Assembly (NCBI RefSeq): GCF_021184045.1
Contig: NZ_CP073710.1
Coordinates: 620,001 to 684,000, forward strand
DNA: 64,000 nucleotides
Origin: Methanococcoides orientis
Lineage (GTDB): Archaea; Halobacteriota; Methanosarcinia; Methanosarcinales; Methanosarcinaceae
Reading direction: 5' to 3'
The notes below the pieces were generated by a model that did no database searches, was not told the DNA's origin, and worked only from the letters and a program-made list of their open reading frames with translations. Shown here piece by piece: positions 3,216 to 64,000 of the stretch (positions are counted from its first letter, which is position 1; each line of letters begins with the position of its first letter). A program made the translations under genes and the position numbers.

Positions 3216-4808
3216 TCAATTCTTAGTTCCGTAGCACTTCTCAAGGTGATCCACTGCTGGCGGGGTCGTAACAAGACTTACACCAATTGCAACCAGCATT
3301 GCCAGAGGGGTTGCCACAAGGATTGGATCGATAACTGTCCATGTTCCTGTAAGTAATGTCTCTGTGCCAAAGAGTGCCTGGCAGATGCCAAGAGGTGCTG
3401 CTTCCTTTGCATGGACGAAAGTGAGCCAGAAAAGGCTGCTGAAAGTACCAACGATAAGACTTGCAATTGCACCTTCTTTTGTCATTCTCTTCCAGAACAG
3501 TGCACCCATATAAGTTGGGAGGAAAGCTGCTGCACAAAGTCCGAAGAATATAGCAGTAGCCCTTGCAATGATGCTTATAGGCAAAATGTATGCAAGGATG
3601 ACACTGACAAGGATGGCCACTGAGATACCGATCTTTGTAACATCCACGGTCTTTCCTGCATTCCCCCTCATCATGAACTCGCGATAGAAGTCGTGTCCGA
3701 TGGCTGTTCCCATTGTGTGGAACTGTGAGCTAAGGGTTGACATTGCAGCTGCAAGCAAGGTTATCATGAAGACGATAACAAACATTTCAGGCATTGCACT
3801 GTTGATGTATTCAGGCATGATGACGTCCATGTTTCCTTTTGCAACTTCAATGGCAAGCATTCCGGTAGTATTAAAGAAATAAACGTTTGAAAGTCCACCT
3901 ACGATGTATGCGACACCTGCCATCATGAGGATGAAAGGGCCACCAGCGAAGACTGCCCTGTTCAGGGATTTCTTACTGTCAACGGTCATGAACCTTACCG
4001 CAAGCTGTGGCTGTGCAAGCACACCAATGCCAACACCGAGGATGATGGTTGATACCATTGTCCACCAAATAGGAGAGCCGAATACCGGCATTGCTGTCCA
4101 TCCCTGATGACCACCTGCAGCCAGTGATTCAGGTACAAGTGGTGCAAGATTAGTGAGTGCCTGATGAGCTTCAACGATACCGCCAAGTTTTGCATAGGTA
4201 AGTGCGAGAAGAACTGCCATACCACCAAGCATAAGGGTTCCCTGAAGTGCATCGGTATACATAACAGCAAGCAATCCGCCTGTGATAACATAGGCAGCAA
4301 CAATAACTGTCAGGATAAGGATCGCAATATTATAGTCAACGGAAAGTGCGGTTTCCATGAACCTTGCACCACCGATAAGGACAATTCCTGCATAAAGAGG
4401 CATGAACAAAGCGATAAGAGCTCCGGAATAACCCTGAATGAAACGTGACTGGAACCGTCTTCCCAGAAGTTCAGGGAATGTAACAGCATTAAGGTTCACG
4501 CCAATGCTTCTTGTCCTTTTTCCAAATACGACAAAAGCGATGAAAATACCTACAAATATGTTCATGAATACGAGCCAGAGGGTTCCCAGACCAAGCGTTC
4601 CTGTCACACCGCCAAAACCGATGATCGCAGCTGTACTGATAAATGCTGCACCATAGGAAAGTGCGAGAATGTAAGGATTGACCTTTCTTCCGGCGAGCAT
4701 GTAGTCGTCGACCTCTTTAGTTCTCCTGTATGCAAGCCAGCCGCAATAGAAAACGGCGAGCATATAGATCAGGACAAATATTCCCAGGGTTGAAGTACTG
4801 ACCGCCAT
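3216..4808 (-). CDS. Sodium:solute symporter (SSS family), copy 1
   Basis: A 530-residue protein with about 13 membrane helices, of the SSS family (PutP, PanF and ActP relatives). Visible family features are the N-terminal helix after MAVSTST, the YMLAGRKVNPYILALSYGAAF segment of the sodium-binding first core helices, GGLLAVMYTDALQG, and the STLSSQFHTMGTAIGHDFYR segment. It should import an organic solute with Na+. The substrate is not deducible; small organic acids or osmolytes are typical for the family. A 39-residue one-helix gene lies 1 nt upstream in the same unit. Two further copies of this pair lie at 54877-58583, and all three proteins are of nearly equal length and closely similar. 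Confidence 0.88.
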   Translation of the reverse strand: MAVSTSTLGIFVLIYMLAVFYCGWLAYRRTKEVDDYMLAGRKVNPYILALSYGAAFISTAAIIGFGGVTGTLGLGTLWLVFMNIFVGIFIAFVVFGKRTRSIGVNLNAVTFPELLGRRFQSRFIQGYSGALIALFMPLYAGIVLIGGARFMETALSVDYNIAILILTVIVAAYVITGGLLAVMYTDALQGTLMLGGMAVLLALTYAKLGGIVEAHQALTNLAPLVPESLAAGGHQGWTAMPVFGSPIWWTMVSTIILGVGIGVLAQPQLAVRFMTVDSKKSLNRAVFAGGPFILMMAGVAYIVGGLSNVYFFNTTGMLAIEVAKGNMDVIMPEYINSAMPEMFVIVFMITLLAAAMSTLSSQFHTMGTAIGHDFYREFMMRGNAGKTVDVTKIGISVAILVSVILAYILPISIIARATAIFFGLCAAAFLPTYMGALFWKRMTKEGAIASLIVGTFSSLFWLTFVHAKEAAPLGICQALFGTETLLTGTWTVIDPILVATPLAMLVAIGVSLVTTPPAVDHLEKCYGTKN

Positions 4809-4809
4809 C

Positions 4810-4929
4810 TTAGCACTCCTCGTCCTCTTCTTCGTTCCACTTTAAAAGCCCATATACCATACATCCCAGTGCACTTACGATGCACAGGACATAGGCCAAC
4901 CATATCTGAGGGTCATCAATACCTAACAT
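4810..4929 (-). CDS. Symporter small accessory protein, copy 1
   Basis: A 39-residue protein starting MLGIDDPQIWLAYVLCIVSA, with one membrane helix (about residues 9-28), a basic/aromatic LLKW boundary and an acidic tail (EEEDEEC). Near-identical proteins precede the two other symporter copies (56463-56576 and 58464-58583), so the short start at 4929 is right and the longer frame to 5004 is not. Its stop is 1 nt before the symporter ATG, implying cotranslation and probably 1:1 assembly. Single-helix partners of SSS transporters are known in archaeal annotation as small accessory proteins; their function is not established. Confidence 0.85.
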   Translation of the reverse strand: MLGIDDPQIWLAYVLCIVSALGCMVYGLLKWNEEEDEEC

Positions 4930-5008: not shown

Positions 5009-5025
5009 CATACTTTAATGTTTCG
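5009..5025 (-). promoter_or_regulatory. Conserved promoter box of symporter module, copy 1
   Basis: On the minus strand this reads CGAAACATTAAAGTATG: a BRE-like CGAAAC followed by a TATA-like ATTAAAGTAT. The same 17-bp box with two or three changes lies upstream of both other symporter modules (56629-56645 and 58640-58656). The distance to the small-protein ATG is about 80 nt here and 53-57 nt in the others. Confidence 0.55.
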
Positions 5026-5233
5026 AAGTTATTCGTAAAAAATAATACAATTGATTGAATGTAAACAGACATCAATGGAGCTAAAAGTGCATAGACGTTT
5101 TAGAGTGAACAGACTTGTGTTGTGAGCATCTCGTAATAAAAAGATGATGTGTTCGTACCAAAAATAAATATTATTTAAACTTTAGAAATATACAAATATA
5201 GAAAAATCCTATTGGTATACCTGTGATTACTCG

Positions 5234-54876: not shown

Positions 54877-56463
54877 TTATTTTTTATAGCAGGTCGCAAG
54901 ATGTTCTTCCGATGGTGGTTCTGTCATCAGGCTGACCGCAATGGCCACAATGGCTGAAATAGGAGTGGCCACCAGTATCGGGTCAACAACTGTCCAGGTC
55001 CCGGTCAGGATCGTATCCATACCGAAAAGTGCCTGTGAAATGCCCAGTGGTACTGCCTCTTTTGCGTGGACAAATGTCAGCCAGAAAAGGCTGCTGAATG
55101 TACCGACCAGAAGACTTGCAATTGCACCCTGACGGGTCATTCTCTTCCAGAAAAGAGCACCTGCATACATGGGCAGGAAAGCTGCTGCACAAATTCCGAA
55201 GAATATTGCTGTTGCTCTTGCAATTATGCTAATAGGCAGGATGTATGCAAGTATCACACTCGCAATAATGGTAATGAAAATTCCCACTCTTGTCATAGTT
55301 ACTGTCTGCCCGGATTTTCCTTTCATAAGGAACTCGCGATAGAAGTCGTGACCAATCGCACTTCCCATTGTGTGGTACTGTGAACTCATGGTCGACATTG
55401 CTGCTGCAAGAAGGGTCACCATGAATATAATTACAAACAGGTCAGGCATGGCACTGTTGATATATTCAGGAATGATAAGATCCTGATTACCACCGGCTGC
55501 GGCGATGGCTATCAGGCCATCCGTCTGGAAGAAATATACGTTGGAAAGTGAACCTACGATAAAGGCGACACCTGTCATCATAAGGATAAAAGGTCCTCCC
55601 ACAAAGACTGCCCTGTTGAGCGACTTCTTGCTGTTCACGGTCATGAAACGTACTGCAAGCTGTGGCTGTGCAAGAACGCCGATACCCACGCCAAGCACCA
55701 GTGTTGAAATAAGTGTCCACCAGATAGGTGAGCCAAACGCTGGCATTGAGGTCCATCCCATATGTCCTCCTGCAGCCAGGCTATCGGGTACAAGACCTGC
55801 CATGTTGGTAAGTGCCATATGGGCCTCGGTAACGCCTCCGAGCTTAATATATGTAAGAACCAGAAGGACGGTCATACCAATGAACATCAGGGCTCCCTGC
55901 AAGGCATCGGTGTACATGACGGCAAGTAATCCTCCTGTAATAACATAAGCTGCAACAATGATCGCAAGGATCAGGACTGCAACATCATAATTGATCCCCA
56001 GAGTGGTTTCAACAAATCTTGCTCCACCGATCAGGACAATTCCTGCGTAAAGAGGCATGAACAACCCGATAATTGCTCCGGAAAAACCTTGTATGAAACG
56101 GGATTGGTACCTCTTTCCCAGAAGTTCGGGGAAAGTGACTGCCTTAAGATTAGCTCCCATACTCCTGGTTCTGGATCCGAATAAAACGAAAGCAACAAAG
56201 ATCCCTACAATTATAGTCATGGCAGCAAGCCACAAGAGTCCCATTCCCAGGACCGCGGCAGCACCGCCAAACCCTACAATTGCCGATGTGCTGATGAATG
56301 CAGCACCGTAGGAAAGGGCAAGAATGACTGGATGCACGTTCCTTCCTGCCAGCATGTAGTCATCCACTTCCTTGGTACGCTTGTATGCAAGCCAGCCGCA
56401 CCAGAAAACAACCATCAGGTAAATAAGTACAACAATTCCGAGAAGGGGGATACTCACTGCCAT
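54877..56463 (-). CDS. Sodium:solute symporter (SSS family), copy 2
   Basis: A 528-residue SSS transporter closely similar to copies 1 and 3, with about 13 helices and the same landmarks: YMLAGRNVHPVILALSYGAAF, GGLLAVMYTDALQG, STMSSQYHTMGSAIGHDFYR, and LPISIIARATAIFFGICAAAFLP. Differences cluster in the loop after residue 210 (GGVTEAHMALTNM) and the external loop with QTDGLIAIAAAGGNQD. These may tune substrate choice. Its ATG overlaps the stop of the small accessory gene by 1 nt. The substrate is unknown. Confidence 0.88.
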   Translation of the reverse strand: MAVSIPLLGIVVLIYLMVVFWCGWLAYKRTKEVDDYMLAGRNVHPVILALSYGAAFISTSAIVGFGGAAAVLGMGLLWLAAMTIIVGIFVAFVLFGSRTRSMGANLKAVTFPELLGKRYQSRFIQGFSGAIIGLFMPLYAGIVLIGGARFVETTLGINYDVAVLILAIIVAAYVITGGLLAVMYTDALQGALMFIGMTVLLVLTYIKLGGVTEAHMALTNMAGLVPDSLAAGGHMGWTSMPAFGSPIWWTLISTLVLGVGIGVLAQPQLAVRFMTVNSKKSLNRAVFVGGPFILMMTGVAFIVGSLSNVYFFQTDGLIAIAAAGGNQDLIIPEYINSAMPDLFVIIFMVTLLAAAMSTMSSQYHTMGSAIGHDFYREFLMKGKSGQTVTMTRVGIFITIIASVILAYILPISIIARATAIFFGICAAAFLPMYAGALFWKRMTRQGAIASLLVGTFSSLFWLTFVHAKEAVPLGISQALFGMDTILTGTWTVVDPILVATPISAIVAIAVSLMTEPPSEEHLATCYKK

Positions 56464-56576
56464 TAGAGCTCCTCCTCTTCATTCCATTTTAAAAGACCAT
56501 AGACCATACAACCAAGAGCGCTTACAACGCAAAGGACGTAAGCGATCCAGATCTGAGGGTCATCTATTCCTAACAT
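56463..56576 (-). CDS. Symporter small accessory protein, copy 2
   Basis: A 37-residue protein, MLGIDDPQIWIAYVLCVVSA then LGCMVYGLLKWNEEEEL. It is identical to copies 1 and 3 except two conservative changes and a shorter acidic tail. GGTGA precedes the ATG, and TAATG joins it to the symporter. Its length is below usual gene-finding limits, so it is easily missed. Conservation of the helix with loss only in the tail argues for selection on the membrane part. Confidence 0.85.
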   Translation of the reverse strand: MLGIDDPQIWIAYVLCVVSALGCMVYGLLKWNEEEEL

Positions 56577-56628
56577 AATTGTCACCACGTTTTTTATCAA
56601 TATAAATCATGACAAATGTTAGCAATGC

Positions 56629-56645
56629 TATACATTAATGTTTCG
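56629..56645 (-). promoter_or_regulatory. Conserved promoter box of symporter module, copy 2
   Basis: On the minus strand CGAAACATTAATGTATA, the copy 2 version of the box at 5009-5025; 53 nt separate it from the small-protein ATG. Confidence 0.5.
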
Positions 56646-56743
56646 TCTGAAAAAAAGTATATATTTAGAATAAATTTGGCAGTTGTTCACAAGGTCTTAA
56701 TATATATGCTGCCAGATATATAAAAAAGCCATGCGGTAGTTAA

Positions 56744-56772
56744 TGCGCTGAACTGAATAGCAGCTCAGGCAT
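56744..56772. repeat. Relic of the mobB-moaE 3' end and terminator
   Basis: These 29 bp match 58809-58837, the end of the MobB-MoaE gene with its hairpin, at 26 of 29 positions. Here the hairpin CTGAACT-N7-AGCTCAG has one mismatch and no gene precedes it. It marks the edge of a duplication that created symporter copies 2 and 3. A further hairpin AGGACAG-N8-CTGTCCT lies at 56798-56819. Confidence 0.6.
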
Positions 56773-56871
56773 TATACTGCCGGTATTCTGATGGATCAGG
56801 ACAGCAACGATACTGTCCTTTTGTATGATCCGTTCACAGATCTTCTTAGTGTTTTGATCCGCTAGTTTCTC

Positions 56872-58464
56872 TTATTTCTGATTGCTGTAACAAGTCTCAA
56901 GGTGCTCCTTCGATGGAGGCTTTGTGGCAAGGCTGACAACCACTGCGACGACCATTGCAAGGGGGGTTGCTACGAGGATAGGGTCAACAACTGTCCATGT
57001 TCCTGTGAGCAATGTGTCCATTCCGAAGATCGCTTTTGATATGCCGAGGGGGACTGCTTCCTTTGCATGGACGAATGTCAGCCAGAAAAGGCTGCTTACT
57101 GTACCTACAAGCATACTTGCGATAGCACCTTCTTTTGTCATTCTCTTCCAGAACAATGCACCGATGTACATTGGAAGGAATGCTGCTGCACACAACCCGA
57201 AGAAGATCGCTGTTGCTCTTGCAATGATACTTATTGGAAGTATGTAGGCCAGGATGACACTTGCAAGTATCGTCACTGCAATACCAAGTCTTGTGATGTT
57301 CACCGTGTTTCCGATCTCTCCTTTCTTGATATACTCGCGGTAGAGGTCATGTCCTATAGCGGTTCCCATTGTATGGAACTGTGAGCTCAGTGTAGACATT
57401 GCAGCTGCAAGTAGTGTCAGCATGAAGAGAACAACGAACAATTCCGGCATTGCACCATTGATATATTCCGGCATAATGAGGTCAGTGTTCCCTTTTGCTG
57501 CTGCTACTGAAATAAGCCCCTGTGTCTTCTGGAAATAGACATTTGAGAGGGCTCCTACGGTAAAGGCCACACCGGTCATCATCAGGATAAATGGTCCTCC
57601 TACGAAGACAGCACGATTTAGTGCCTTGTCGTTCTCAACTGTCATAAACCTGACAGCAAGCTGAGGCTGTGCCAGTACGCCGATCCCTACTCCAAGAACG
57701 AGAGTTGAAATCAGCGTCCACCAGATGGGCGTACCGAAAGCCGGCATCGCGGTCCATCCAAGATGACCTCCCGCAGCAAGGGATTCAGGAACAAGACTTG
57801 ACATGCCTGAAAGTGCTTCGTGTGCTGCAGTGACACCTCCGAGTTTGACATATGTCAGTGCAAGCAGGATTATCATACCAACGAACATGAAAGCACCCTG
57901 CAATGCATCGGTATACATTACAGCAATAAGTCCGCCTGTAATGACGTAAGCTGCTACTATGATCGTAAGGATAAGAACTGCAATATCGTAGTTCACTCCA
58001 AGTGTGGTTTCAACAAAACGAGCTCCACCGATCAGGACGATACCTGCATAAAGTGGCATGAACACGCCGATCAGCGCTCCGGAGAATCCCTGGATGAACC
58101 GGGACTGGAAACGTTTTCCAAGCAATTCCGGGAATGTGACAGCATTGAGACGGGCACCAATGCTTCTTGTTCTTTTTCCAAATATGACAAAAGCGATGAA
58201 GATACCGACAATGATGTTCATCACTGCAAGCCAGAGCAGACCCATGCCAAGAGCACCTGCTGCACCGCCAAAACCGACGATCGCAGATGTACTGATAAAA
58301 GTCGCACCATAGGAAAGTGCAAGAATATAAGGATGGATCGTTCGTCCGGCGACCATGTAGTCATCGATCTGTTTTGTTTTCTTGTATCCTAATAATCCCA
58401 GGTAGAAAATTATCATCAGATATACAAGTACAATAACTCCAAGCAGAGGGGTACTGACTGCCAT
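56872..58464 (-). CDS. Sodium:solute symporter (SSS family), copy 3
   Basis: A 530-residue SSS transporter, tandem to copy 2. It begins MAVSTPLLGVIVLVYLMIIF and has YMVAGRTIHPYILALSYGATF, GGLIAVMYTDALQGAF, STLSSQFHTMGTAIGHDLYR and the same LPISIIARATAIFFGLCAAAFLP block. It is closest to copies 1 and 2 in all helices; loops near residues 215-235 and 305-330 differ. The stop of its 39-residue partner overlaps the ATG by 1 nt. Substrate unknown. Having three paralogues in one window suggests several related substrates or conditions. Confidence 0.88.
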   Translation of the reverse strand: MAVSTPLLGVIVLVYLMIIFYLGLLGYKKTKQIDDYMVAGRTIHPYILALSYGATFISTSAIVGFGGAAGALGMGLLWLAVMNIIVGIFIAFVIFGKRTRSIGARLNAVTFPELLGKRFQSRFIQGFSGALIGVFMPLYAGIVLIGGARFVETTLGVNYDIAVLILTIIVAAYVITGGLIAVMYTDALQGAFMFVGMIILLALTYVKLGGVTAAHEALSGMSSLVPESLAAGGHLGWTAMPAFGTPIWWTLISTLVLGVGIGVLAQPQLAVRFMTVENDKALNRAVFVGGPFILMMTGVAFTVGALSNVYFQKTQGLISVAAAKGNTDLIMPEYINGAMPELFVVLFMLTLLAAAMSTLSSQFHTMGTAIGHDLYREYIKKGEIGNTVNITRLGIAVTILASVILAYILPISIIARATAIFFGLCAAAFLPMYIGALFWKRMTKEGAIASMLVGTVSSLFWLTFVHAKEAVPLGISKAIFGMDTLLTGTWTVVDPILVATPLAMVVAVVVSLATKPPSKEHLETCYSNQK

Positions 58465-58583
58465 TAGAAGTCATCCTCCTCTTCTTCATTCCATTTCAAA
58501 AGACCATAAACCATACAACCAAGAGCGCTTACAATGCAAAGTACGTAGGCGAGCCAGATCTGTGGGTCATCTATTCCTAACAT
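58464..58583 (-). CDS. Symporter small accessory protein, copy 3
   Basis: A 39-residue one-helix protein; residues 1-33 are identical to copy 1 and only the acidic tail differs (EEEEDDF). GGTGA lies upstream of the ATG, and the leader shares its first 15 nt with copy 2. Its TAA overlaps the symporter ATG (TAATG). Confidence 0.85.
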   Translation of the reverse strand: MLGIDDPQIWLAYVLCIVSALGCMVYGLLKWNEEEEDDF

Positions 58584-58639: not shown

Positions 58640-58656
58640 CATACTTTAAGGTTTCG
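58640..58656 (-). promoter_or_regulatory. Conserved promoter box of symporter module, copy 3
   Basis: On the minus strand CGAAACCTTAAAGTATG, one base different from copy 1; 57 nt from the small-protein ATG. TTCAGA upstream is also shared with copy 2. Confidence 0.55.
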
Positions 58657-58812
58657 TCTGAAATAAGTATATTCTGGAAGTCATTGAACATATAGTTGCA
58701 TCAATGTCCATAAGTATACGGAAGCTGACGTGTGGTGGAGTTGTATAAGTAATAAAAGGTCAATTAAATGGAGAATTGTAATTAATTTACATGTAAAATA
58801 AGATTGGATGCG

Positions 58813-63259: not shown

Positions 63260-64000
63260 CCGGAACTGACAAGAGAATCGGAACTTCAGAGATCTCCGGA
63301 CTTGAAGCACTCTATTTTGGATTGATCGACAGCAACGTGGAGTTTGTCACAGGAGTTGCCGGCTTTCCTGTCACTGCCGTAATGAACTATTTTGAGAAGA
63401 ATCTCGGACCTGAAATTCCCACGCTCTGGATGACGAACGAGAAGGTCGCCCTGGAGGCAGCACTTGGTGCCTCAGTTTCAGGCAAACGATCTCTTGTCCT
63501 CACAAAGCATGTGGGCATGAACGTCCTTTCCGACCCCCTTGTTACATCTGTCACCCACACCATTGGTGCCGGGTTAGTGATCGTAGCAGGAGATGATCCC
63601 GGGGTCAGAGCATCCCAGAACGAGCAGGATTCACGATGGTACGGCGAGGTTGCAGAGGTTGCTGTATTCGACCCGTCGAATCCGGAGGCTACTTACAGTT
63701 CACTTATCAGGGCTTTCGAACTCTCCGAAAGTACGAAAACTCCTGTGATAGTCAGGATAACCGACCGCCTGGAAAAAACCACTGGAACTGTTACAAGATC
63801 AGATGACATTAAAACAGAGACCGAAGCAAAAGCCACATTTGACAGGTCGATCTGGAAGCTGACAATGCGTGGCAAGCACCAGCATTTTCACATAAATGTA
63901 CAGCCGTTGCTTGTGGATGAAGCAGAGAACAACCCTCTGACCCGATCTGTTAAAGCTGGTAAGTCAAACAAGATCGGAATCATATCTTCAGGCTATCCCT
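63256..64000 (+). CDS. Indolepyruvate/2-oxoacid oxidoreductase alpha-like (TPP-dependent), N-terminal part
   Basis: The gene runs off the window; about 248 residues are visible. It starts MTGTDKRIGTSEISGLEALY and has NEKVALEAALGASVSGKRSLVLTKHVGMNVLSDPLVT, the pyrimidine-binding domain of IorA-like TPP enzymes, followed by GAGLVIVAGDDPGVRASQNEQDSR. Such enzymes oxidise 2-oxoacids with ferredoxin. The catalytic half and any Fe-S domain are beyond the edge. It follows marker 11 with 4-nt overlap, an arrangement that suggests joint function. Confidence 0.8.
   Translation, partial: MTGTDKRIGTSEISGLEALYFGLIDSNVEFVTGVAGFPVTAVMNYFEKNLGPEIPTLWMTNEKVALEAALGASVSGKRSLVLTKHVGMNVLSDPLVTSVTHTIGAGLVIVAGDDPGVRASQNEQDSRWYGEVAEVAVFDPSNPEATYSSLIRAFELSESTKTPVIVRITDRLEKTTGTVTRSDDIKTETEAKATFDRSIWKLTMRGKHQHFHINVQPLLVDEAENNPLTRSVKAGKSNKIGIISSGYP

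Follow-up and report, generated by a model that had tools for sequence, protein, structure and literature searches.

A one-helix protein encoded beside a single clade of SSS symporters in Methanococcoides orientis and its relatives

Three symporter pairs in the M. orientis window

The window, a 64,000-nt stretch of the Methanococcoides orientis genome, carries three genes for SSS symporters on its minus strand, each directly preceded by the gene for a small one-helix protein. Copy 1 comprises a 39-aa small protein (MLGIDDPQIWLAYVLCIVSALGCMVYGLLKWNEEEDEEC; 4810..4929, stop included) and a 530-aa symporter (3216..4808), copy 2 a 37-aa small protein (56463..56576, stop included) and a 528-aa symporter (54877..56463), and copy 3 a 39-aa small protein (58464..58583, stop included) and a 530-aa symporter (56872..58464). 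Copies 2 and 3 lie in tandem, and at both of their junctions (TAATG) one base is common to the stop and start codons; in copy 1 (TAAGATG) the symporter ATG lies 1 nt past the small-gene stop. We thereby confirmed the coordinates and junctions of the initial annotation, which had described three SSS symporters directly preceded by genes for 37–39-residue proteins with TAATG or a 1-nt gap. Roughly 65–100 nt 5' of each small gene, we found by eye a common box, CGAAAC[AC]TTAA[AT]GTAT, resembling BRE and TATA elements (CGAAACATTAAAGTATG at 5009..5026, CGAAACATTAATGTATA at 56629..56646 and CGAAACCTTAAAGTATG at 58640..58657, all on the minus strand); judging from these boxes, each pair may have a promoter of its own.

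All three small proteins belong to NCBIfam family NF045580, "symporter small accessory protein", which they match end to end and without difference (residues 1–33 of 33; 74.6, 72 and 74.6 bits for copies 1, 2 and 3, about twice the curated cut-off of 35 bits). The family name implies the same gene context, and each of the three copies shows the family trait of being encoded beside an SSS symporter; the pairing in the window is therefore already known to annotation through NF045580. The family nonetheless has its name from a database, a full-text search for that name and searches on small SSS subunits having returned no paper on it. The small proteins have no Pfam match at E values up to 1, and hence none to the MetS family. 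The symporters score 204.8, 210.3 and 212.3 bits (copies 1–3) against PF00474, for which the Pfam gathering score is 22.8. Against the PutP sodium/proline symporter model (TIGR02121) they reach 211–220 bits, compared with an equivalog cut-off of 515.5, leaving the label "proline symporter" unsupported.

The small proteins share an architecture of a G-I-x-D-P start, a single hydrophobic segment and then W-N and an acidic tail. Within their first 33 residues they differ at 0–2 positions, whereas the symporters are 75–80% identical to each other, in keeping with the earlier observation that the symporters vary while the small protein hardly does. Of the 33 codons compared between small genes 1 and 3, 18 differ without changing a single amino acid, indicating that this invariance reflects selection on the peptide rather than recent copying. 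In our tree, the three window symporters are placed apart from one another within the Methanosarcinaceae. The host genome holds six SSS genes, three of the paired clade with an NF045580-type small gene and three others without one, and it holds exactly three members of the small-gene family, all inside the window.

Co-occurrence, gene order and selection across archaea and bacteria

Across 295 genomes of the phylum, the small gene was present in 104, the clade symporter in 106 and both in 103, so that at most four genomes have just one partner gene. The three symporter-only genomes belong to a distant group, f4, and both f4 genomes that we fetched hold a diverged small gene below the cut-off; the single small-gene-only genome carries a degenerate relic and no symporter. 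In the host's family, the small gene is found in 87 of 101 genomes and in all 14 genera. NF045580 as curated does not reach every relative, the f4 copies and some Archaeoglobus-like copies scoring below its cut-off. In the f4 genomes, the diverged small protein (MIWGMDxWVFTAFIL...VYGLWPRK; 20–23 bits, loci L258 and L259) is encoded 5' of a distant SSS.

The earlier proposal raised the question of whether homologous symporters commonly lack the small gene, and we found that they do not. Among 251 full-length clade symporters in the fetched loci, a set in which some genes were fetched repeatedly and some loci were brought in via the small gene, the small gene is directly upstream in 242 and directly downstream in 2. 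Two others (L148 and L161) have just a neighbor's small gene, located downstream, and five lack it altogether (a symporter at a contig edge, the second tandem copies in L182 and L183, L198 and L257). Loci picked by the symporter alone (L122–L201) likewise mostly have the small gene. Intact solitary members of the clade are thus rare (L198, L257 and the two tandem second copies), and their existence means that the small protein may not be needed or may work in trans. One of them, L257 (G006:C1:782576-784150, minus strand), has no flanking small gene and lies in a genome that holds another complete pair. In L148, a frame 5' of the second symporter (approximately 1020–1114) resembles a worn small gene (GKNSPQVRIHILSF...YLICGLVNWK) with no start.

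Stop and start overlap in 143 of the 242 upstream-type pairs and are separated by 0–30 nt in a further 80, and the pairs of Methanosarcina, most species of which have a single pair in the genome, have gaps of 90–150 nt. The order is reversed in a gammaproteobacterial bin (L177/L218) and a KSB1 bin (L188/L216), where the small gene begins about 20 nt past the end of the symporter gene. In L081, L083 and L089, whose small gene is degenerate, the symporter is broken or gone. A scan of named genomes for the symporter, together with the tree, placed the clade in Methanosarcinales, Methanotrichaceae and Methanomicrobiales; it also occurs in an Archaeoglobus-like family (f6, given that name by inference) and is scattered among bacteria, including Prolixibacteraceae, Elusimicrobiota, Omnitrophota, Kiritimatiellota, KSB1 and others, several of these being metagenome bins with possibly mistaken labels. 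In Bacteroidota it is rare (2 of 395 genomes). According to the tree, pairing with the small gene is ancestral and losses are isolated. Across these many phyla, the small gene is linked to this one symporter clade and nothing else, while the other neighbors vary.

A pooled dN/dS of 0.133 over 749 pairs of close relatives shows purifying selection on the small gene. Residues conserved in at least 90% of the small proteins (weighted, 233 pairs) are G3, D6, Y13, C23, Y26, G27 and W31, and a conserved helix face is formed by I9, Y13, C16, A20, C23, G27 and W31 (permutation p = 0.035). Near-perfect co-occurrence, adjacency in either order, joint decay, purifying selection and one conserved helix face together strongly support a dedicated partnership between the small protein and the symporter.

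Fold of the symporter and a candidate contact site

For structure prediction we used L152, from a Methanosarcina-like bin, translating the small gene, the 90-nt spacer and the symporter in one frame with stops as glycine, and we supplied AlphaFold2 with 76 relatives. The resulting read-through model (pLDDT 87.8, pTM 0.86) has an SSS, LeuT-like fold whose matches include CHT1 (VIA Z 39), SiaT (33) and SGLT1/2 (32). By tens of residues, the small helix has pLDDT values of 86, 96 and 96 when fused to the symporter, versus 63, 88 and 92 when folded alone; this gain fits docking of the helix, short of proof. When the symporter model is compared with SGLT chains, the match ends at chain residue 569 and the model ends soon after, the small helix itself being unaligned, and from this end point the last SGLT helix seems to be absent from the paired symporter. 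Lysine and arginine occur in the small protein only after the helix, and these counts favor a C-terminus inside; the acidic C-terminal tails and the bridge states of the L152 model (read singly, at residues 3, 6, 129 and 362) do not favor that orientation.

We also looked for coevolution between the two proteins. Their sequence distances correlate at 0.79, a value obtainable from shared ancestry alone, and mutual information between them showed no excess over shuffles. In mean-field DCA on 233 pairs, which amount to only about 83 effective sequences, the top inter-protein pair, symporter F287 with small-protein M24, outscored every intra-symporter pair, and K280-L29 and T297-C16 fell on one antiparallel line with it. 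The best pair scored 2.57 and the best band 6.85, compared with at most 2.03 and 5.79, respectively, in 12 within-clade shuffles. Alignment to SGLT1 identifies symporter residues 284–305 as the core helix TM7, and the coevolution signal points weakly to TM7 as the site of the small protein, a lead only.

Role of the small protein, related systems and cargo

We consider it likely that the small protein is a subunit, probably an obligate one, of a 13-helix, SGLT-like Na+ symporter and that translational coupling lets it be synthesized shortly before the symporter. Dedicated to a single clade of Na+/solute symporters that have 13 helices and the SGLT/CHT1/SiaT fold, this single-helix subunit would be translated immediately before its partner, and the usually coupled or overlapping stop and start would have both proteins made together. 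We infer that the conserved face described above would pack along the exterior of the symporter, tentatively on TM7, where the helix could aid transporter folding, stability or the holding of the scaffold. Of the earlier proposal, the partnership is thus well supported, and action on a part common to the transporters, for example in assembly or gating, is a possibility.

The same overlaps and short gaps would also be expected if the small ORF were a leader whose translation sets that of the downstream symporter, with the peptide itself doing little. The swapped gene order in two bacteria (L177 and L188) largely refutes this reading, the long Methanosarcina gaps speak against it, and amino acids rather than DNA are kept, as the codon comparison of copies 1 and 3 and the dN/dS show; with the order swapped and the protein under selection, we set a pure leader peptide aside as very improbable. 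Just as improbable, in our estimate, is operon-level co-conservation of two proteins that never touch, the small one having a separate membrane function: the evidence for contact is no more than suggestive, with mutual information at its null level, but such a gene would hardly stay bound to one symporter clade across many phyla while the neighbors change. A protein that conditionally regulates activity, specificity or turnover, of the AcrZ or MgtR kind rather than a structural subunit, deserves more weight, since bacteria have well-documented transporter regulators with a single helix (PMC10710835), and we regard it as a minority possibility. The genes of such regulators usually lie away from the transporter gene and are switched on by a signal, whereas adjacency and co-occurrence are nearly fixed here, a better fit to the constitutive partner that we favor.

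Small membrane proteins are encoded beside other LeuT-fold symporters. MetS is a small one-helix subunit of the methionine/alanine importer MetPS, encoded beside a LeuT-fold sodium symporter, and the window module resembles it in joining a one-helix protein gene to a LeuT-fold sodium symporter gene; MetP, however, is an NSS protein and the window symporters are SSS, and the window small proteins have no Pfam match to MetS. Two-helix partners of SSS proteins include DUF4212/TIGR03647, DUF485 beside ActP and DUF997 beside PanF. They share with the window proteins a small membrane gene adjoining an SSS gene, as does DUF3311, which adjoins MctP (PMC9100948), but all four are longer, have two helices and do not match the window small proteins. 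Human SGLT2 and SGLT1 carry MAP17 (PDZK1IP1), a stabilizing single-helix auxiliary subunit tied to the bundle domain that binds SGLT2 at TM13, the last SGLT helix (PMC10803289). The window module likewise pairs a single-helix protein with an SSS-fold symporter, but the docking helix of MAP17 is the one that appears to be missing from the paired symporter, and we found no sequence relation between MAP17 and the window small proteins. The near-perfect pairing over archaea and bacteria offers a clean natural system for studying the need of some LeuT-fold symporters for an additional helix, an issue already posed by MAP17 and SGLT2.

Neighboring genes give hints of cargo for part of the clade. Among 80 named loci, a phenylacetate-CoA-ligase-like gene lies near the clade symporter in 12 and an ACT-pair protein in 10, and several have an IOR alpha or beta subunit, a prephenate dehydratase, an aminotransferase or a PaaI-like thioesterase nearby. 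In bacteria and some methanogens (L173–L178, L183–L187, L192–L195 and L161), clade symporters sit within operons of aryl-CoA ligase, ACT and indolepyruvate ferredoxin oxidoreductase genes. Because genes of aryl-CoA and indolepyruvate metabolism share operons with these members, gene context suggests that the cargo of several bacterial and methanogen relatives is an aryl acid that is converted to aromatic amino acids or derived from them, and these operons supply a testable cargo. We did not carry this assignment over to the window copies, whose own neighbor genes are uninformative on substrate; the host's iorA and ligase gene, at 709–713 kb of the genome, adjoin a different SSS.

That different, panF-like SSS (genome 713462-714871, plus strand) has a one-helix partner of its own. 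A 29-residue ORF (MPLPYIYLMIAVIIMLATTFFFVLRQDHD; 713383-713469, plus strand) overlaps the start of the symporter gene by 8 nt at its 3' end and belongs to a second family of 28–33 residues with the pattern MPLPY...LRRxHD (L262–L291). The ORF is present in all 29 relatives with upstream room, its non-overlapping part has a dN/dS of 0.154, and it is found in 21 of 295 phylum genomes, which, among those sampled in both searches, are the ones that carry its symporter. This family has no NCBIfam match, and DUF3311 was rejected as its identity (13.6 bits in 1 of 22 members against a Pfam gathering score of 30). It has no evident sequence in common with the window family and is a new by-product of this work, unannotated and unrelated to that family; its 29-residue gene shows that gene callers overlook partners even smaller than those in the window. 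More speculatively, and with doubt prevailing, prokaryotic SSS symporters might repeatedly have gained unrelated one-helix subunits of 28–60 residues, the window family replacing the missing last SGLT helix plus a MAP17-like scaffold and the 29-residue family doing likewise for the symporter beside methanogen iorA and aryl-CoA ligase genes. At the end of the window itself (63298-64000, plus strand, extending to genome position 684818), we observed an IorA-like match of 311 bits, below the cut-off, with one in-frame TGA.
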